Shown: positions 21,544 to 34,629 of the stretch, piece after piece
How positions within the stretch are numbered: the first letter of the stretch is position 1
Layout: every line of letters begins with the position of its first letter
Origin: Terriglobia bacterium
Lineage (GTDB): Bacteria > Acidobacteriota > Terriglobia > Acidiferrales > UBA7541
Reading direction: 5' to 3'
Assembly: GCA_020072765.1 (NCBI GenBank)
Contig: JAIQGD010000035.1
Location: forward strand, 1 to 34,807
Length of the DNA: 34,807 bases
The notes under the pieces: model-generated
What the model was told of the DNA's origin: nothing
What the model saw: the letters and a program-made list of their open reading frames with translations, nothing else
Database searches by the model: none
Position numbers and translations under genes: made by a program

Positions 21544-22269
21544 GTGACATCGCCAGCGAAACCTCCCGTGATTACGCCCTACCGCCGGCTCGACCCGAAG
21601 ACCCAGCCGCCGTTGCTCTACGAACCCTACCGCGCCTCGGTCGAACGCGCCCCGCGCAAGCCGCTCATCCTGCTCCCCCAGACCCTTTCCGAAATCACCG
21701 GGCCGGTCTACGGCCACGGCGACATCCAGGCAACCGACAACGATCTCACGCGCCAGCACGCCGGCGAACCCCAGGGTCAACGCATCCTCGTGACCGGGCG
21801 CGTCCTGGACGACGCCGGACGCCCCGTGCCCCATACCCTGATCGAAATCTGGCAGGCCAACGCCGCCGGACGTTACATCCACAAGGCCGATCGCAACGCC
21901 GCGCCTCTGGATCCCAATTTCTCCGGCACGGGCCGCACTTTGACCGATGCTCAGGGCCACTACCGCTTCGTCACCATCCAGCCCGGCGCCTATCCCTGGG
22001 GCAACCATCCCAACGCCTGGCGGCCCCGCCACATTCATTTTTCTCTGTTCGGCACCGCCTTCGCCACGCGCCTGGTCACGCAGATGTATTTTCAGGGCGA
22101 TCCCCTGATTCCTTTCGATCCCCTCCTCAACGCCATCCCCGAGGAGAAAGCGCGCGAGCGCCTGATTTGCAAATTCGATCCGAACCTCACCGAACCCGAC
22201 TGGGCCTTGGCCTACCGCTTCGACGTCATCCTGCGCGGGCGCGAAGCCACTCCCTTCGAGGGGCAATGA
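21544..22269 (+). CDS. pcaH: Protocatechuate 3,4-dioxygenase, beta subunit
   Basis: This 241-residue intradiol ring-cleavage dioxygenase subunit opens protocatechuate to 3-carboxy-cis,cis-muconate, using non-haem Fe(III). All four iron ligands are seen: Y111 (GRYIHKAD), Y150 (GAYPWGNHP), H163 and H165 (RPRHIHFS). Their spacings (39, 13, 2) equal those of Y408, Y447, H460 and H462 of the Pseudomonas enzyme. LIEIWQANAAGRY and DPNFSGTGRTLTD are family signatures. It starts at GTG with AAGGAG 5 bases upstream. pcaG follows at once, giving the alpha/beta heterodimer. Confidence 0.95.
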   Translation: MTSPAKPPVITPYRRLDPKTQPPLLYEPYRASVERAPRKPLILLPQTLSEITGPVYGHGDIQATDNDLTRQHAGEPQGQRILVTGRVLDDAGRPVPHTLIEIWQANAAGRYIHKADRNAAPLDPNFSGTGRTLTDAQGHYRFVTIQPGAYPWGNHPNAWRPRHIHFSLFGTAFATRLVTQMYFQGDPLIPFDPLLNAIPEEKARERLICKFDPNLTEPDWALAYRFDVILRGREATPFEGQ

Positions 22270-22271
22270 CC

Positions 22272-22844
22272 ATGGACTACACACCCACTCCGTCGCAGAC
22301 CGTCGGACCCTTTTTCATGATCGGCTTCGCCGGGCCGCTTCTGATTTCGCACATCGCCGCTCCCGGCGTCCCCGGCGAGCGCGTGAAACTCGTCTGCACC
22401 GTGTTCGCCGGAGAAAACCAGCCGGTCAACGACGCGCTGATCGAAATCTGGCAGGCCAACGCCGAAGGCAAGTACAACCATTCCGGCGACCCGCAGGAGA
22501 AGCCGGTCGATCCGTCCTTTCTCGGTTTCGGCCGCCAGGGCACCGATGACCTCGGCGTTTGCGTGTTTCACACCATCAAGCCCGGCCGCGTGCCCGCCAA
22601 TGACGGCAGCCTCCAGGCCCCGCATCTGGTCGTGGGGGTCTTCACGCGCGGCGTGCTCCAGCGTCTCCCCACGCGCATCTACTTCGCCGGCGATCCGGCC
22701 AACGATTCCGATCCCGTCCTGGCGCTGGTTCCCGCGGCGCGCCGCGTCACCCTGCTCGCCCAGCCCGTCCCCGGCGAACCCGAAACGTGGCGCTTCGACG
22801 TGCACCTGACCGGCGCCCGCGAAACCGTCTTCTTCGATATCTAA
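22272..22844 (+). CDS. pcaG: Protocatechuate 3,4-dioxygenase, alpha subunit
   Basis: This 190-residue partner of PcaH shares the intradiol-dioxygenase fold (TPSQTVGPFF, LIEIWQANAEGKYNH, DPSFLGFGRQGTDD) but lacks the histidine pair that binds iron, having APHLVVGVF at that place, as expected for the alpha subunit. The start is put at the ATG of MDYTPTPSQ, 8 bases after GAGGGG. Another ATG 6 bases earlier overlaps the pcaH stop (ATGA) and would also couple translation, but its ribosome-site spacing is too short. Together with pcaH it forms the ring-cleaving oligomer. Confidence 0.93.
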   Translation: MDYTPTPSQTVGPFFMIGFAGPLLISHIAAPGVPGERVKLVCTVFAGENQPVNDALIEIWQANAEGKYNHSGDPQEKPVDPSFLGFGRQGTDDLGVCVFHTIKPGRVPANDGSLQAPHLVVGVFTRGVLQRLPTRIYFAGDPANDSDPVLALVPAARRVTLLAQPVPGEPETWRFDVHLTGARETVFFDI

Positions 22845-23095: not shown

Positions 23096-23896
23096 ATGCC
23101 CTTCGCAACTGTTGGGAAAAACCGCCTCTACTACCGCCTGGAGGGGCACAACGGTCTCCCCGTGCTCGTCCTCTCGCATTCCATCGGCGTGGACCACGGA
23201 CTCTGGGCCCCGCAGATGCACGACCTGCTCGCACATTTCCAAATCCTGCGCTACGACACGCGCGGGCACGGCGCCTCCGACGCGCCGCACGCGGAATACT
23301 CCATCGAAGATCTCGCCTGCGACGTTCTAGGCCTCGCCGACGCGCTCGGCATCGCCCAGTTCGCCTTCTGCGGACTCTCCCTGGGCGGCATGACCGGCCA
23401 GTGGCTCGGCATGCACGCCTCCGAGCGCCTCACCGCGCTGGTCCTCGCCAACAACTCCCCGCGCGCCGGATCGAAAGCCGCTTGGGACGACCGCCGCACC
23501 GCCGTCTTCGCCGGCGGCATGGCCTCCATCGTGGACATGGCCATGCAGCGCAATTTCCTGCCCGAGACGCTGGCGCAACGCAATCCGCACACCAGCACCC
23601 TGCGCGCCGTGTTCCTGAAAACCGATCCCGCCGGCTACGCCGGCTGCTGCTCGGCCATCCGCGACATGGACCACGTCGCGTCGCTGCGCAACATCCGCGT
23701 TCCCACGCTGGTCATCGTCGGCAACCGCGACGCCTCCACCCCCTGGGAGGGCCACGGCGAAATCCTCGCCCGCGAAATTCCCAACGCCCGCGTCGTCCGC
23801 CTCCCCTCCGCCCACCTCTCCAATATCGACTGCCCCCAACCCTTCACCGCCGCCCTCCAAGATTTCCTCCTCCCGCTCACCACACCAGCGCCGTAG
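23096..23896 (+). CDS. pcaD: 3-oxoadipate enol-lactonase
   Basis: This is a 266-residue alpha/beta hydrolase. The nucleophile elbow CGLSLGGM places S95. The acid is D212 (VGNRDASTP) and the base H240 (SAHLSN), the correct order and spacing for the fold. VLSHSIGVDHGLWAPQ and RYDTRGHGASDAP match the PcaD branch, which hydrolyses 3-oxoadipate enol-lactone to 3-oxoadipate in the beta-ketoadipate pathway. The neighbouring pcaHG genes support the call. The two intermediate enzymes, PcaB and PcaC, are not in the window; this protein has no fused C-terminal carboxymuconolactone decarboxylase domain (as in PcaL). Its last codons overlap the first unit of a repeat array. Confidence 0.88.
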   Translation: MPFATVGKNRLYYRLEGHNGLPVLVLSHSIGVDHGLWAPQMHDLLAHFQILRYDTRGHGASDAPHAEYSIEDLACDVLGLADALGIAQFAFCGLSLGGMTGQWLGMHASERLTALVLANNSPRAGSKAAWDDRRTAVFAGGMASIVDMAMQRNFLPETLAQRNPHTSTLRAVFLKTDPAGYAGCCSAIRDMDHVASLRNIRVPTLVIVGNRDASTPWEGHGEILAREIPNARVVRLPSAHLSNIDCPQPFTAALQDFLLPLTTPAP

Positions 23897-24125
23897 GCGC
23901 GCTACACGTTAGCCCAACCCGTGAGGGTTGGGCGGCCCGGGACACAATTACCCCATTCATTCCCGGCGAGCGCCGAAGGCGCGCTACACGTTAGCCCAGC
24001 CCGCAAGGGGGCTCATTCCAAATCAGCGCCGGAGGCGCGTAACACGTTAGCCCAACCCGCAAGGGTTGGGCGGGCCGCCCCGGGCCAAATCCCCTTTTTA
24101 TTCTCAACGAGCGCCGTAGGCGCGA
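23887..24125. repeat. Tandem array of REP-like double palindromes
   Basis: Four units begin at 23887, 23969, 24025 and 24110 (the last partial). Each has a gcgccg-nag-gcgc palindrome, the string acacgttagccc, and a hairpin of the cccaacccg-c/t-aagggttggg type. The array overlaps the end of pcaD and stops 22 bases before the transposase remnant. Confidence 0.85.
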
Positions 24126-25516: not shown

Positions 25517-26542
25517 ATGAGTTCCCAAATGCCGTCGCAGGCCACGCCCCAGCGTTTGATGCAGATTGTTTGGAGCTTCGCGCAACCTCTCGCCCTGCAG
25601 GCCGCCATTGAAAACCGCGTGTTCGACGTGCTCGACGCCGGTCCCAAGACCATCGAGGAAGTCAGCCAAGCAACTGGCGCATCCGTGCGCGGGCTCGCCG
25701 CGGTGATGAACCTGCTGGTCGGCATTCAGTTCCTGGCCAAGACGCCGGACGGCCGCTACGCACTAACGCCGGAGAGCTCCGCCTTCCTGGTCAGCACGAA
25801 GCCCGGCTATTACGGCGGGTTCGTTCGCCAGATCGTTTCCGGACTGATCCCTCACTTTCTGCAGCTGCCGGAGATCGTGCGCACCGGAAAGCCCGTGGAG
25901 AATCACGTCGGCAGTTCCGAGGCGCCGGAGTTTTTCGAGGAACTTGTGGTGAACATTCTGCCGGTGGCGTATGCGGGTGCGCGGGCCGTCGCCGAGGCGC
26001 TGGGCGTTTCACGCGCCGTCCAGCCGGTGCCGGTGCTGGATATCGGTGCGGGTTCCGGGGTGTGGGGCATCGCGCTGGCGCAGGCCTCGCCGCAGGTGCG
26101 CGTCACCGCCGTCGACTTTCCCGGCGTGCTGGCGGTCACGCGCAAAGTGGCCCAGCAATTTGGCGTCGCCGATCAATTCACCTGCGCGGGCGGGGACATA
26201 TTCAAGGACGATCTCGGCAGCGGCTACGCCGTGGCCACCCTGGGACACATCCTCCACATGGCCGGCCCGGACGCCAACCGATCCTTGCTGAAGAGAATTT
26301 TCAGCGCGCTGGCCCCGGGGGGAACGCTCGTCATCGGGGAATTTATCGTCAACGAGGATCGCACCGGGCCGGTGGAGCCTCTCGCCTTCGCCATCAACAT
26401 GCTGATCCACACGGAGAATGGAAACGCCTACACGCTGGGGGAGATTCGCGCGTGGCTTCAGGAAGCCGGGTTCGTGAATATTCGTACGCTGGCTGCTCCC
26501 GCTCCATCACCGCTGGTGCTCGCCGACAAACCGGGGAAATGA
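25517..26542 (+). CDS. SAM-dependent O-methyltransferase, plant-COMT-like family (1)
   Basis: This is a 341-residue class I methyltransferase of the Methyltransf_2 family. The N-terminal ~100 residues are the helical dimerisation domain (ALQAAIENRVFDVLDAGPKTIEEVSQATGASVR). The SAM loop VLDIGAGSGVWG is at ~172-183, and AVDFPGVLAV holds the acidic ribose binder. At the catalytic region the motif is LGHILHMAGPD: the histidine is kept, but the usual HDW/D is HMA, which may alter acid-base chemistry. ALAPGGTLVIGEFIV is motif VI. Family members methylate phenolic or polyketide hydroxyls, or demethylate. AAGGAG is 11 bases upstream of the start. A related methyltransferase lies on the opposite strand at 27775-28824. 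Substrate unknown. Confidence 0.87.
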   Translation: MSSQMPSQATPQRLMQIVWSFAQPLALQAAIENRVFDVLDAGPKTIEEVSQATGASVRGLAAVMNLLVGIQFLAKTPDGRYALTPESSAFLVSTKPGYYGGFVRQIVSGLIPHFLQLPEIVRTGKPVENHVGSSEAPEFFEELVVNILPVAYAGARAVAEALGVSRAVQPVPVLDIGAGSGVWGIALAQASPQVRVTAVDFPGVLAVTRKVAQQFGVADQFTCAGGDIFKDDLGSGYAVATLGHILHMAGPDANRSLLKRIFSALAPGGTLVIGEFIVNEDRTGPVEPLAFAINMLIHTENGNAYTLGEIRAWLQEAGFVNIRTLAAPAPSPLVLADKPGK

Positions 26543-27774: not shown

Positions 27775-28824
27775 TCAGGCCTTGACGGCCTCGATGACGC
27801 AGTAGGGGGATTTGGTCCGGACGACGCGCGCCAGGCGCAATCCGGCCTGCGAGAAGAGTTCGGCGAAATCGCGTTCGGTGCGCTCGCGGCCGCCGGCCAT
27901 GGCTAGCATTTCCATGTCGATCCACTTCGCAAGACTGGGCTCATTGCCCGGATCGATCACGAATTCGATCAGAAGCACTTTGCCGCCGGAGCCGCGCATG
28001 GCGCGCGCGCAATTTTTGAGGATGGCGACGGAGCGGGCATCATCCCAATCGTGGATGACGGATTTCAGCACGTAGCTATCGGCCGGCGGAACGCCCTGAA
28101 AGAAATCTCCGCCGGCAATCTCGCAGCGGGACGCCAGTCCCAGCGAGTCGATGCGCGGTTTCGCGCCCGCCACCACATCGGGCAAGTCGCAGACGATGCC
28201 GCGCAGCCCGGGATGCTTCTGCAAAATGGCGGCGAGCAGGAACCCGTGTCCCCCGCCGACATCGGCCAGCGTGCCGAGCCCGCCGAAATCGTATTCCTCG
28301 AGGACCGGCCCGATGAGCCACGCGCTGAGGTTGGTCATGGCGGCGTTGAACACCGCGTGTTCGGCGGCGTCCTGCTGGAGATAATCAAACGCCTCGAAGC
28401 CAGTGGCTTTTTTGACGGCGGTGGCGCCGGTCTTCACCGAGTGCATGAACTCCGCGAAAACGCGCAGGTGAAACGGATCGGCCAACCACAGCACGATTTC
28501 GTGCAGCGAACCGGGAGTCCCCGCACGGAGCAGCTCGGAGGCCGCGGTGTTGGCAAAGATTCCGGGCGCCGTTTCGGTGAAGACGCCGATGCACGCCAGC
28601 GCGCGCAGCACGCGGTAGAGCGCATTTTCGTTCACGCCCCCGGCCCCCCAGGCCAGCTCCGCCACGGGCCGCGGCCCTGCCGCCAGCAGATCCGCGATCT
28701 TGAGTTTCGCGGCGGTGTGCAGACAGATCGCCGGCATGTAGCCGGTGGCGAACTGCAGGATCTGGTTGCGCGGGTCCGGCGCGGAACCCTTCGGTGCAGT
28801 ATTCGGCGCGGATGAAACGGTCAT
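27775..28824 (-). CDS. SAM-dependent O-methyltransferase, plant-COMT-like family (2)
   Basis: A 349-residue Methyltransf_2 protein. It has an N-terminal dimerisation domain (QFATGYMPAICLHTAAKLKIADLLAAGPR), an SAM loop LADVGGGHGFLLAA, a strand-2 acidic region VCDLPDVV, the canonical catalytic block VIHDWDDARSVAIL, and GGKVLLIEFVIDPG. Unlike the plus-strand paralogue it retains the HDW.D catalytic motif, so it looks like an active O-methyltransferase of the hydroxyneurosporene/phenolic type. AGGAGG lies 5 bases before the ATG. A TACTAT -10 candidate occurs at 28871-28876 on this strand. No biosynthetic cluster surrounds it, so the substrate is unassigned. Confidence 0.9.
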   Translation of the reverse strand: MTVSSAPNTAPKGSAPDPRNQILQFATGYMPAICLHTAAKLKIADLLAAGPRPVAELAWGAGGVNENALYRVLRALACIGVFTETAPGIFANTAASELLRAGTPGSLHEIVLWLADPFHLRVFAEFMHSVKTGATAVKKATGFEAFDYLQQDAAEHAVFNAAMTNLSAWLIGPVLEEYDFGGLGTLADVGGGHGFLLAAILQKHPGLRGIVCDLPDVVAGAKPRIDSLGLASRCEIAGGDFFQGVPPADSYVLKSVIHDWDDARSVAILKNCARAMRGSGGKVLLIEFVIDPGNEPSLAKWIDMEMLAMAGGRERTERDFAELFSQAGLRLARVVRTKSPYCVIEAVKA

Positions 28825-29111
28825 GGAGCCTCCTGGGTGTGGTGAATGGACTCGATTGCGTGGGCAAATCATAGTACACGCCGCGAACCCGCGCCAACGA
28901 ATTGCCGCCCCGGTGTGCTTGCTGTCTAACAGGACGCCGGGAGTGAAGCCACGCAAACGGGCCTGGCGGCATCCCTTAGCGTGTCGCCGGGGCTGGCATA
29001 TTGAGCAACCCGGGGACATGCCCGGCAGGCGGGCCAACACGTTCTCCTAGAATGAGGAGGCCGCGCGCGCACCGGGAGCGGACGCAATTCAGGTGTACTG
29101 GGAGGAACCTT

Positions 29112-31010
29112 ATGAAAGCAGTTACACCATTTCTTGTGGCGATTCTGTTCCTGCTGGGCGGCGGAGCTTCCGCGCAGGAGACGGCGCATGCGCCGGGCTG
29201 GGTGGTCCTGCCGCTGGAAGAGTACCGGATGCTTCATGGCCGGGCTTATCCCACGGAACGCGGCCCGGAGCCGCCTCCGGTGGATGCGACGCTGACGCGC
29301 GTGGACTACGATTTGCGGATTGAGAACGAAGTGGCGGTGGGCCGCGCGGTCCTGACCGTGGATGTGCTGAAGGACGGGTGGGTGCGCGTGGCGATTCCCG
29401 CAGGCCTGCTGGTGCGCAAGGCGGAGTTGGACGGCAAGGCGGTGGCGCTGGTGCCAAGCGGCGGGGAGAGAGGGGGCGGCCAACTCTCGGCGGTGTTGTC
29501 GCACCCGGGCCGTGCCGCGCTGTCCCTGGACGTGGTGCTTCCGGTGGCGGCGGCGAGCGCGCAGGAAAGCCTGATGTTGCCGACGGCCGGATCCGGCGTG
29601 ACGCGCGCGTCGGTGGAGATTCCCCGGCAGGGCGTGGACATCCGGCTGAGCGGCGGAATTTTGTCGGAGCATTCGGAATCCGGCGCGGGCAGCAAGTGGC
29701 TGGCCTACGGCAACGGGAGTGAAACGCTGACGCTGACCTGGCAGCGCAAGGTGGAAGATCACCGCGGCAGCGAACCGCTGCGCTGGCGCGGCTCGTTGAC
29801 GCAGCTGGTGAGCCTGGGTGAAGACTCGACAGCGATCTACGCGGAGGCGAACGCGGAGGTCGTGCAGGGGCTGGCGCGCGACATCCGCATCCGGGTGCCG
29901 GCGGGGGTGACGATCAATCAGGTGATGGGCGCGCTGGTGGCGGACTGGAACACCAAGGGGAACGAACTGGTGGTGACGTTCCTGGAGCCGGTGGAGCACT
30001 CGGCGCGGTTTGTGGTCACCGGAGAAACGCGCCTGCCGCGAGACGGGAAGATCGAGGTGCCACTGCTGCGGCTGGTCGATCCCGTGCGGGAGACGGGAGG
30101 CGTGGGGGTGGAGGTGACCGGAGCGGGGGAGATCAAGGATTTGAAGCCGCGCGGACTGGAAAACGCGGACGCCAGCGATCTGGGCGAGATCGTGTCCAGC
30201 CGGCAATCGCCCTCGTTGGTGGCGTTCCGGTTCCGCGTGGGCGGGGCGGAGATGGAACGGGCCCTGACAGTGGACGTCACGCGGTATACGCAGCAAGCGG
30301 TCCTGATGGCGAACATCGAGGAAGCCCGGTACAAGGTGCTGGAAAGCAAGGATGGAAAGACGCTGGTGGAAGCGCGCTACGCCGTGCGCAATAACCAGAG
30401 AAACTTCGTCAAGATCACGTTGCCGCCGGGGGCGGTGCTGTGGAGCGCGTCGTTGGCGGGCAAGCCGATCCGGCCCGGGCAGGCTCCGGACGGCAGCCTG
30501 CTGCTTCCGGTGGAAAAAGCGCGCGGCGGGGAGGAAGCGCCGGCGTTTGCGCTGGAGGTGTTGTATGTGGCGCGGGCGTCCGCGTGGAGCGAGCGGGGAA
30601 AATTCGCGCTGTCGTTGCCCGCGGTGGATCTTCCCATCTCGCGCACCGGGCTGGAGCTTTTTTATCCACCCCTGTTCAAGGTGACGGCGGACCCGGGCAC
30701 GTTTCGAACGGAAACGTACGCGGACCCCATGTCGGTGGCTCTCAATGCGGGCAGAGATGAACTGGTGGCCAGCGAGACGAGGGCGGGGGCCGAAACCCCG
30801 GCCGCGCCGCAAAGGAAAGATACCCAGTCTCTGCTCGATCAGTTTTCAGCCAAGTCCAAGACCGGGCGGGCCGCGGGGATTTTGCCGGTTCGGATTTCGT
30901 TCCCGGCGTTTGGCCCGTCGCTGTTTCTTGTGTCGGAATTGACGAGCGAGAACCAGGCGCCGGCGGTGGCGTTGAGTTACCAGCAGGAGAAAAAGGGAGG
31001 TGCGCGATGA
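29112..31010 (+). CDS. Secreted paralogue A, large beta-rich protein of unknown function
   Basis: This 632-residue protein has a clear signal peptide (MKAVTPFLVAILFLLGGGASA, cleavage before QE). I do not recognise a named family. The mature part begins WVVLPLEEYRMLHGRA and is almost entirely beta-strand-like, with repeated VxVxLP patterns (VRVAIPAGLLVRKAELDG, NFVKITLPPGAVLWSASLAG). The late block LSLPAVDLPISRTGLEL.YPP.FKV and the C-terminal GILPVRISFPAFGPSLFLVS are matched in the next gene. GGAGGAAC stands before the ATG. The stop overlaps the following start in ATGA, so the two are coupled. Probably periplasmic or outer-surface; no cysteines or lipobox, no enzyme motif seen. Confidence 0.8.
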   Translation: MKAVTPFLVAILFLLGGGASAQETAHAPGWVVLPLEEYRMLHGRAYPTERGPEPPPVDATLTRVDYDLRIENEVAVGRAVLTVDVLKDGWVRVAIPAGLLVRKAELDGKAVALVPSGGERGGGQLSAVLSHPGRAALSLDVVLPVAAASAQESLMLPTAGSGVTRASVEIPRQGVDIRLSGGILSEHSESGAGSKWLAYGNGSETLTLTWQRKVEDHRGSEPLRWRGSLTQLVSLGEDSTAIYAEANAEVVQGLARDIRIRVPAGVTINQVMGALVADWNTKGNELVVTFLEPVEHSARFVVTGETRLPRDGKIEVPLLRLVDPVRETGGVGVEVTGAGEIKDLKPRGLENADASDLGEIVSSRQSPSLVAFRFRVGGAEMERALTVDVTRYTQQAVLMANIEEARYKVLESKDGKTLVEARYAVRNNQRNFVKITLPPGAVLWSASLAGKPIRPGQAPDGSLLLPVEKARGGEEAPAFALEVLYVARASAWSERGKFALSLPAVDLPISRTGLELFYPPLFKVTADPGTFRTETYADPMSVALNAGRDELVASETRAGAETPAAPQRKDTQSLLDQFSAKSKTGRAAGILPVRISFPAFGPSLFLVSELTSENQAPAVALSYQQEKKGGAR

Positions 31011-33220
31011 GACAGGCCTGGTTTGTTTTCGCGCTGATCATGCTGATTATGGCGAGCGCCGCAGGCGCGCAGGACAAGAGCAACCTTCCTCTGCCCGGGC
31101 CGGGCAATGTGACGCTGACGTTGGACGAGTACAACCGCCTGGCGGCGCTGGCCAGCAAGCCGCTGCCACCGGCCAACGTGCCGCCGGTGGCGTACGCCAT
31201 CAAGAGCGCGGAGTTGCGGCTGCGCGTGGCGGATGAGTCGGTGATGGGAACGATCGCGGTGGAGGGAGAAGTGTTTCGCAAGGGAGCGACGCGCGTCCCG
31301 CTGACCACGGGATTCACGATTCTGGACGCGCGCGCGGGAGGCAAGGCCGTGCCGCTGGAGCAGCAAGGCGGCCGGCAGACGGCGATCTTGCCGGGGCCGG
31401 GCGAGTTCTCGCTGACGCTCGACGCGGGCCTGGCGCTCGAAATCGGCGCGGGCCGCGCCTCGTTCAATCTTCCGGTGCCGGCGGCGGGAAGCGCGCGGCT
31501 CACGCTGGTGGTTCCCGGCGATCACACCAACGTCAGCATCAATAAGGGGCTGATCGTGGGCCGGAAGTCGGAGAACGGGCTGACGACCGTGGAGGCCGCG
31601 CTCGTGCCGGGACAGCAGGCGAGCGTCTGGTGGACGACGCGGGAAATCACCGCGCCGGTGGTTCCGCGGGAAGCGCGATTCCTTTCCGAGGTCAAGACGC
31701 TGGTCTCGGTAGGCGAAGCGGATCTGCGGCTGGCGGCGCTCGCCGACATTACCGTGGTGCAAGGAGAGCCATCGCAGTTCGTGGTGGAGGTGCCGCCCGG
31801 ATACGAACTGACGGGCGCGACGGGAGCGACGCTGGAATCGAGCGAGGTGCAATCCGGCGCGCTGGTGCTGAAAGTGAGCCAGCCCGCGCAGCGCACGCAC
31901 GAGTTCCTCATCTCCATGGAGCGATCCATGGACGGAACCAAGGCGGAAGCGCCCTTTTTGAGTTTTAAGGACACGCAGCGAGAAACGGGCGAAGTCCTGG
32001 TGGAGGGCGAAGGGACGATGGACCTGACCGCGACCGAAGGCGGAGGCCTCAAGCGCATGGATGTGAAGGAGACCAACGCGTATTTGCGGTCTCTGGCGCG
32101 CTTTCCCATGCAGGCGGCGTTTCGCTATCACCGGCAGGCGGCGGAGGCTCCCACGCTGGCGCTTTCCTGGGTGCGTTTTCCGGACACGAGCGTGCTGGCG
32201 GCGATTGCCGAACACGCGGTGGTCACCACGCTGGTGACCTCGGAAGGGAAATCGCTGACGGAAGTGAAACTCTCGGTCAAGAATCAGGCGCAGCCGTTTT
32301 TGAAAGTGGGGCTGCCCGCCGGGGCGAGCATCCTTTCGGCGGACGTCGCGGGCGAGAAGGTGAAGCCGGTGCAAGGAACCGACGGCGAGCGCGTGCCGCT
32401 GCTGCGGCCGGGCTTCCGGCCGGTGGACACCTACGAGGTGTCATTTGTGATCATGCATTCGGGCGCGCCGTTTGCCAAGAATGGAGGCTCGGAGCTATCG
32501 CTGCCGAAGATGGATGTTCCGATCAGCCTGCTGGAATGGGAAGTGTTTCTGCCGGAACGGTACAAGGTGAAAGATTTCGGGGGCGATGCGCTGGCGGCAA
32601 ATCTGGTGCCTGGCGGGATTGCGTGGGGCGTGGGTGGGGCAGCAGGAACGGTGGTGGGAGTGGCTGTTGCGCCTGGTGTGATGGCCAATCCCGGAGTTTC
32701 GCGGTTGCTTCCCGGGCAGATGGGAGGGTACGTGACCGATGCCAGTGGCGCGGCGATTGCCAATGCGTCGGTGACGATCACGAACCTGGATACGGGCGCG
32801 ACGCGCACGGCGGCCACCGATGCCTCCGGCTTCTGGATGGTTCCCAACATGCCGTCGGGTAGAGTGAGAATCACAACGTATTCTCCCGGCTTTCAGAGCT
32901 GGGTTCGCGACGTGAACTTCAACGCGGGCCAGCCGGAGCGGTATGCGATTACTTTGAATGTTGGGTCCGTGACAGAGAGCGTCATGGTCACTGGCAGGAA
33001 CTACGAAGAAGTAATCGACCTCGCGCCAAAGAAGGCGGAGAAGAATGCCGCAATGGCGCCAAGCATGGCCTCGGCCAACGTATTCAATCTCCAGCAGCGC
33101 ATTGCGGGGGTGTTGCCGGTGGCCGTGGATATTCCGCGCACGGGCAATTCGTACCGCTTCGTGCGGCCGCTGGTGCTCGATGAGGAGACGAAGATCACGT
33201 TCACATACCGGACGAAGTAG
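31007..33220 (+). CDS. Secreted paralogue B with inserted carboxypeptidase-regulatory domain
   Basis: This 737-residue protein has a signal peptide (MRQAWFVFALIMLIMASAAGA, before QD). It parallels gene A: VTLTLDEYNRLAAL near the N-terminus, QPFLKVGLPAGASILSADVAG, then LSLPKMDVPISLLEWEVFLPERYKV, and C-terminal GVLPVAVDIPRTGNSYRFVR. Between the last two blocks it has a Gly/Val-rich linker (~537-560) and a carboxypeptidase-regulatory-like beta-sandwich at ~571-664 (GYVTDASGAAIANASVTITN, TDASGFWMVPNMPSGRVRI, ending VTESVMVTG). That module is typical of acidobacterial Oar/TonB-receptor N-termini, but here no receptor barrel follows. Start ATG overlaps the stop of gene A. Function unknown; a joint envelope complex is inference. 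Confidence 0.8.
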   Translation: MRQAWFVFALIMLIMASAAGAQDKSNLPLPGPGNVTLTLDEYNRLAALASKPLPPANVPPVAYAIKSAELRLRVADESVMGTIAVEGEVFRKGATRVPLTTGFTILDARAGGKAVPLEQQGGRQTAILPGPGEFSLTLDAGLALEIGAGRASFNLPVPAAGSARLTLVVPGDHTNVSINKGLIVGRKSENGLTTVEAALVPGQQASVWWTTREITAPVVPREARFLSEVKTLVSVGEADLRLAALADITVVQGEPSQFVVEVPPGYELTGATGATLESSEVQSGALVLKVSQPAQRTHEFLISMERSMDGTKAEAPFLSFKDTQRETGEVLVEGEGTMDLTATEGGGLKRMDVKETNAYLRSLARFPMQAAFRYHRQAAEAPTLALSWVRFPDTSVLAAIAEHAVVTTLVTSEGKSLTEVKLSVKNQAQPFLKVGLPAGASILSADVAGEKVKPVQGTDGERVPLLRPGFRPVDTYEVSFVIMHSGAPFAKNGGSELSLPKMDVPISLLEWEVFLPERYKVKDFGGDALAANLVPGGIAWGVGGAAGTVVGVAVAPGVMANPGVSRLLPGQMGGYVTDASGAAIANASVTITNLDTGATRTAATDASGFWMVPNMPSGRVRITTYSPGFQSWVRDVNFNAGQPERYAITLNVGSVTESVMVTGRNYEEVIDLAPKKAEKNAAMAPSMASANVFNLQQRIAGVLPVAVDIPRTGNSYRFVRPLVLDEETKITFTYRTK

Positions 33221-33289
33221 GCGGCGGAGGCTGCGAACGTGCGGCGGCGCAACTCGCGCGAGCGGGCCGCCCTGAAGGGCGCCGCTACA
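33221..33289. repeat. 69-bp direct repeat, left copy, including a REP-like unit
   Basis: It matches 34561-34629 at 65 of 69 positions, with 57 of 59 from 33231. Its right part (33265-33289) is a REP-like GTAG hairpin in reverse orientation. It starts right after the stop of secreted paralogue B. Confidence 0.85.
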
Positions 33290-34560: not shown

Positions 34561-34629
34561 GCTGCGGCGGCTGCGAACGTGCGGCGGCGCAGCTCGCCCG
34601 AGCGGGCCGCCCTGAAGGGCGCCGCTACA
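34561..34629. repeat. 69-bp direct repeat, right copy, including a REP-like unit
   Basis: It matches 33221-33289 (65 of 69). Same orientation as the left copy, so the cyclase gene lies between direct repeats 1340 bases apart. Confidence 0.85.

Follow-up and report, generated by a model that had tools for sequence, protein, structure and literature searches.

An overlapping pair of exported acidobacterial paralogues predicted to consist of tandem M1 aminopeptidase-type saddle domains

Organisation of the gene pair

The DNA analysed here (the window) is a stretch of 34,807 nt, read on the forward strand, of contig JAIQGD010000035.1 from a Terriglobia bacterium (assembly GCA_020072765.1), and it carries two adjacent genes, here termed A and B. 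An earlier note on this DNA had claimed that two genes overlapping by ATGA encode exported beta-rich paralogues, and the coordinates, the sequence blocks and the level of similarity all agree with this. Each gene is preceded by a GGAGG ribosome site (29101-29105 for A, 30996-31000 for B). Direct reading of the sequences shows that both proteins start with a Sec-type signal peptide ending in A-x-A/Q and lacking a lipobox, and a membrane-segment check of both found no C-terminal membrane segment. The coordinates of the features are given in Table 1.

The paralogy of A and B was evident from tblastn (E = 6.6e-50, 28% identity over residues 7-523 of B) and phmmer (E = 4.5e-51). It spans about 520 residues, and the matching blocks, VVLPLEEYRML in A and VTLTLDEYNRL in B, SLPAVDLPIS and SLPKMDVPIS, and GILPV and GVLPV, are its visible tips. 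The first of them belongs to an 11-residue motif, V-[TV]-L-P-x-x-E-Y-x-x-L, located behind the signal peptide. Of 67 family proteins, 49 have this motif, as against 0.1% in shuffled sequences, and the loci L096 and L099 have three copies; it may be a docking element.

The base composition of the pair (GC 0.645-0.666, third-codon-position GC, GC3, 0.80-0.82) is typical for the window, and a foreign origin on compositional grounds was rejected since both values match it. Rfam gave no match near the pair, a promoter scan found no plus-strand promoter match, and terminator matches were at chance level.

Searches of Pfam, NCBIfam and PHROGs with A and B returned only PF13620, in B. An S_layer_anammox match on the insert of B only, with 21.7 bits against a cut-off of 1400, was rejected. 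Sequence searches of the PDB with single queries and a 23-row profile found nothing credible for either protein, and plasmid and viral collections held no relatives of the pair. The Peptidase_M1_N family, PF17900, gave no match to either protein at E <= 10; a search of the window's own genome with this family gave C102 as the sole match.

Table 1. Features of the A/B gene pair in the window; domain boundaries are those predicted from the models
Feature	Position	Strand	Details
Gene A	29112..31010	+	632 aa, exported, three predicted tandem saddle domains; ATG at 29112, stop at 31008-31010
Signal peptide of A	29112..29174	+	residues 1-21, ASA/Q, read directly; hydrophobic stretch 3-21
N-terminal motif VVLPLEEYRML of A	29202..29234	+	residues 31-41
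A domain 1, M1 N-terminal-like saddle	29274..29750	+	residues 55-213; LTA4H Z 12.9, rmsd 3.2, 154 aligned
A domain 2, saddle	29778..30281	+	residues 223-390; D. radiodurans M1 Z 12.0, rmsd 3.5, 152 aligned
A domain 3, first part	30300..30731	+	residues 397-540; ERAP1 Z 12.4, rmsd 3.3, 157 aligned, range 397-625
A variable low-confidence loop	30750..30884	+	residues 547-591; equivalent site of B insert
A C-terminal hairpin closing domain 3	30918..30986	+	residues 603-625; after GILPV block
ATGA overlap, A stop / B start	31007..31010	+	overlap present in 24/24 pairs examined
Gene B	31007..33220	+	737 aa, exported, paralogue of A; ATG at 31007, stop to 33220
Signal peptide of B	31007..31069	+	residues 1-21, AGA/Q, read directly; hydrophobic 1-19
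N-terminal motif VTLTLDEYNRL of B	31109..31141	+	residues 35-45
B domain 1, saddle	31184..31642	+	residues 60-212; LTA4H Z 14.1, rmsd 2.8, 149 aligned
B domain 2, saddle	31670..32179	+	residues 222-391; Ost1 Z 13.8 over 58-396; homologous to A domain 2
B domain 3, first part	32198..32551	+	residues 398-515; by alignment with A domain 3 and model
Insertion in domain 3 of B	32555..33145	+	residues 517-713
CarboxypepD_reg (transthyretin-like) domain in insertion	32723..32956	+	residues 573-650; PF13620, E 4e-19
B C-terminal hairpin closing domain 3	33149..33205	+	residues 715-733

Predicted fold and its sequence support

Template-free AlphaFold2 models of A and B, predicted singly as the earlier note had proposed and both from the same 23 sequences, reached a mean predicted local distance difference test score of 74 and 71, respectively. 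Each model consists of three similar beta domains in tandem, and the nearest full-length fold is that of Ost1/ribophorin I, which provided the top Foldseek matches in the PDB (A, E = 7.7e-9; B, E = 1.6e-9). In VIA-align, residues 55-396 of A (domains 1-2) matched yeast Ost1 with Z 14.8 and residues 222-628 (domains 2-3) matched human ribophorin I with Z 13.6, at a root-mean-square deviation (rmsd) of 11-15 A that is probably due to differing domain angles. Like A and B as modelled, the ectodomain of this human and yeast endoplasmic reticulum protein, their nearest solved relative, consists of exported tandem M1-like saddles without a protease; unlike them, it aligns over two saddles, while A and B have three each.

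Compared one by one, the modelled domains of A and B all take the fold of N-terminal domain I (PF17900) of the M1 aminopeptidases, such as LTA4H, PepN, ERAP1 and the D. radiodurans M1 enzyme, with rmsd of 2.8-3.5 A. In contrast to these enzymes, A and B have three tandem copies and no thermolysin-like domain, and lie below PF17900 detection. A also resembles TAF2 of TFIID (7edx_B, 5fur_I; VIA Z about 12), a non-peptidase whose M1-type saddle has a role in protein contacts; unlike the pair, TAF2 is nuclear, retains an M1-like remainder and has no tandem string. Because the ERAP1 match of A spans both the late block (SLPAVDLPIS) and the C-terminal block, the two belong to one domain, domain 3, and the insert of B, by alignment with A, is therefore a loop insertion within that domain.

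The link to M1 enzymes was also sought in sequence. An earlier iterated profile search was set aside because drift was possible, and was replaced by a wider leak-free profile built from the first domains of the family only, with third domains and all M1 proteins excluded, which was searched against 29 acidobacterial M1 proteins and several thousand reversed and shuffled decoys. This profile matched one acidobacterial M1 aminopeptidase at E = 3.2e-5 (Z=100,000) and two further M1 proteins weakly, at E = 0.03 and 0.1; all three matches were in register, within three residues of the start of the M1 domain, and none of the decoys was matched at E <= 10. The same profile recognised a third domain at 5e-4 over its length. 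The domain inventory thus comes from predicted structure with modest sequence support, and the assignment of domains 2 and 3 as M1-type saddles mainly from the predicted structure.

Neither the HEXXH zinc motif nor GAMEN/GAFEN occurs in any of 80 family proteins. Given this absence and the predicted fold, each protein is best regarded as a row of M1-type saddles with no catalytic part. The literature, covered in part, contained no description of bacterial tandem-saddle proteins, and no profile search placed both proteins in a characterised family. The earlier statement that no known system comes to mind thus stands at the system level, as no profile library names the pair, and falls for the fold, which is a known one. 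A and B match no named bacterial family and would make up a genuine, so far uncharacterised envelope system of two proteins.

The insert in domain 3 of B

The presence of a carboxypeptidase-regulatory-like domain in B alone, without a TonB receptor barrel, was borne out: PF13620 scored 69.2 bits in B against a gathering threshold of 32.3 and had no match in A, Pfam detected no plug or barrel families in B, and in the model only a hairpin follows the insert. The word "regulatory" is merely the Pfam name, and the element is a transthyretin-like loop insertion in the third domain.

The insert shares 35% identity (4e-18) with the N-terminus of an Oar-like TonB-dependent transporter of the same genome, including the linker after the domain. 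Such transporters carry CarboxypepD_reg at their N-terminus, whereas B has no plug or barrel and its domain sits inside another fold; the transthyretin-like domain of B was probably captured from a transporter of this type. In the B protein of locus L119 a receptor plug fragment (42%, E = 1e-5) stands in place of the domain, and this fragment, together with the similarity of the insert to Oar-like transporters, is the reason why B seems, judging from sequence, to have captured pieces of TonB receptors. Plug-like fragments at the B insertion site were noted in L119 (338-2311, E = 1e-5), L014 (5444-7741) and L015 (9983-12292), the latter two with a weak "LNLAGRNSTNL"-like motif.

The CarboxypepD_reg domain is missing in 4 of the 24 B proteins, and the insert is therefore an optional accessory that the pair can do without. 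At least four changes of state were counted on the tree, with a minimum of two losses; the absences in L016 and L017 are losses, because both sit inside domain-bearing groups.

Distribution and linkage

A phylogenetic profile, likewise proposed earlier, showed that the pair is inherited as a unit in all searched genomes and, in the searches made, is confined to Acidobacteriota. A scan of GTDB contigs revealed 11 loci, all from this phylum and with both genes side by side. The canonical pair was present in 18 of 95 whole genomes of the order and in 8 of 396 genomes sampled across the phylum, a patchy distribution, and always as both genes. Within the window's genus it was found in the window genome only (1/20), and in the sister genus in 17 of 36 genomes, many of these genomes being incomplete. 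The overlap among the 24 pairs is ATGA in 20, GTGA in three and TGATG in one, and the A and B distances are correlated at 0.97 over 231 comparisons. Gene A is interrupted by what looks like a frameshift at two loci, L014 (3568-5447) and L110 (8264-10163), which reflects assembly error or decay.

The neighbours of the pair are conserved within small clades only and are unrelated across lineages; the neighbourhood was rejected as a functional clue for lack of such conservation. Since the pair stays while its neighbours change, it would appear, from gene order, to be a self-contained two-gene cassette that has often been moved or lost. Transfer and loss are indistinguishable here, because the composition is native and the tree leaves the place of the window unresolved.

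Remote relatives

More distant relatives, from further families of the Acidobacteriota, differ in their arrangement. L094 and L095 combine A-like and B-like halves in one chain of about 1580 aa, with transmembrane segments after each half, and L092 encodes one A/B chimera. L104 has a further pair of adjacent genes; here too CarboxypepD_reg is confined to the second protein and occupies the same position. L098 and L100-L103 encode versions of about 1000 aa with more domains and C-terminal membrane segments, which in L098, L100, L101 and L102 stand after a conserved partner gene of 740-940 aa (mutual E 1e-53 to 1e-102). L100 has an extracytoplasmic function (ECF) sigma factor gene upstream, and L101 has sigma region 4 there. 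The partner and these membrane-anchored relatives form an unnamed envelope operon.

The conserved partner (L100, 11784-15214; L101, 11331-14485; L098, 5512-7767; L102, 5649-7868) has no Pfam family, with TonB_C in L098. Its identity as a vWA protein had no Pfam support at E <= 10 and is not claimed.

Possible function of the pair

The reading we favour, with a confidence of about one half, is that A and B are two subunits of a non-catalytic scaffold outside the cytoplasm, in the periplasm or envelope. Both proteins would be exported by Sec, each carrying its N-terminal motif and three predicted tandem saddles of the M1 N-terminal type without a catalytic domain. Both are translated from one overlapping mRNA, which probably yields them in matched amounts, and they would most likely join to form a particle with six saddles, located in the periplasm or at the cell surface. 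The curved saddle sheets may bind other polypeptides, by analogy with the single or double saddles of M1 enzymes and Ost1/ribophorin I, and in B the transthyretin-like domain would be displayed by the domain 3 loop that precedes the final hairpin. A link between ribophorin I and protein quality control has been reported (PMC12564220). That A and B work jointly is suggested by their co-occurrence, the overlap retained in 24/24 pairs, the distance correlation, the stability of the pair amid changing neighbours, the fusions in L094 and L095, and the chimera in L092.

Several observations weigh against this scheme. The predicted template-modelling score of both models is low (0.33-0.36), so that the order of the domains can be trusted and their relative placement cannot, and the two models, sharing 23 sequences, are not fully independent. 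Only domain 1 has strong support from sequence for the M1 fold: hhalign comparisons between the domain profiles and to M1 were not significant, only like-with-like comparisons being so. The A:B hetero-complex is something we infer, and the two proteins might function independently; correlated trees and linkage can also come from common inheritance with no contact between the proteins, and ancestry alone would account for much of the 0.97.

An unlikely alternative is that the proteins are ectodomains of an envelope sensor, whose saddle strings sense the state of the envelope and relay it through membrane-anchored partners, as the relatives of about 1000 aa may do. The C-terminal transmembrane segments and preceding partner gene in L098, L100, L101 and L102, and the sigma factor genes in L100 and L101, would fit such a role. 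The window pair itself has no membrane anchor after the signal peptides, and neither such a partner nor a sigma factor lies in its vicinity; the adjoining GGDEF gene is not conserved beside the pair.

Surface adhesion or matrix assembly, the idea of the earlier note, appears less probable still. A and B are exported, repetitive and beta-rich, the insert resembles domains of surface proteins, and B has weak Foldseek similarity to pilins and adhesins such as BcpA and UafA; these matches, however, have TM-scores of about 0.1 and rmsd above 20 A, far below those to M1 and Ost1. No sorting signal was seen in the proteins, and no secretion or anchor genes lie nearby. An adhesion assembly thus has no specific support, the best folds being M1 N-terminal domains and Ost1 and not adhesins.

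A bacterial counterpart of Ost1 in protein glycosylation is suggested by the best full-length fold match of both proteins, and is very improbable. PF04597 (ribophorin I) matched neither protein, nor any of 12 genomes at E <= 10; STT3 was not detected in the window genome (G000, 96.6% complete) and reached the cut-off in 2 of 25 pair-bearing genomes and 2 of 44 genomes overall. Moreover, A and B lack the transmembrane helix and the cytosolic, ribosome-binding helical domain of Ost1. Because STT3 is rare or undetected, PF04597 is silent, and both the anchor and the cytosolic domain are absent, an oligosaccharyltransferase role of the pair is unlikely. Lastly, it is hardly credible that A and B are decayed, functionless M1 aminopeptidases, as the missing catalytic domain and the absence of the pair from most relatives might suggest: the frames are intact, with roughly 57-70% identity across genera and families and the overlap kept throughout, and broken A frames, possibly assembly errors, are limited to L014 and L110.

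Other features of the window

Downstream of the pair, a CZB-GGDEF gene is flanked by a 69-nt G+C-rich direct repeat (33221-33289 and 34561-34629, 94% identical), and these two were the only full copies found in the genome. Upstream, a Y1 transposase gene (IS200-type, PF01797; 24147-24680) adjoins three short repeats at 23880-24077 with a GCGCGCTACACGTTAGCCCA-like sequence inside. Two different O-methyltransferase genes (PF00891) lie close together at 25529-26542 and 27775-28824, and tandem intradiol (protocatechuate 3,4-) dioxygenase genes at 21544-22844 share a four-base overlap in the same style as the pair.

Implications

Two anonymous "hypothetical proteins" have acquired a defined predicted domain architecture, and with it a testable two-subunit system in a dominant, poorly understood soil phylum. 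The loop of domain 3 in B is a natural insertion site at which TonB receptor pieces appear to have been gained and lost, and it illustrates domain capture clearly. According to PMC10343166, domain I of PSA is found in M1 aminopeptidases alone and has no strong similarity to proteins of other families; in A and B this type of domain would be reused as a building block without the enzyme. A bolder proposal, which we regard as doubtful, is that these proteins represent a new bacterial class of catalysis-free tandem M1-saddle proteins, an obligate A:B pair capturing exported polypeptides at the envelope, whose ancestral tandem-saddle architecture is common with Ost1/ribophorin I and has been reported only from archaea and eukaryotes. 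The pair offers a bacterial comparison point for the origin of the Ost1 ectodomain.

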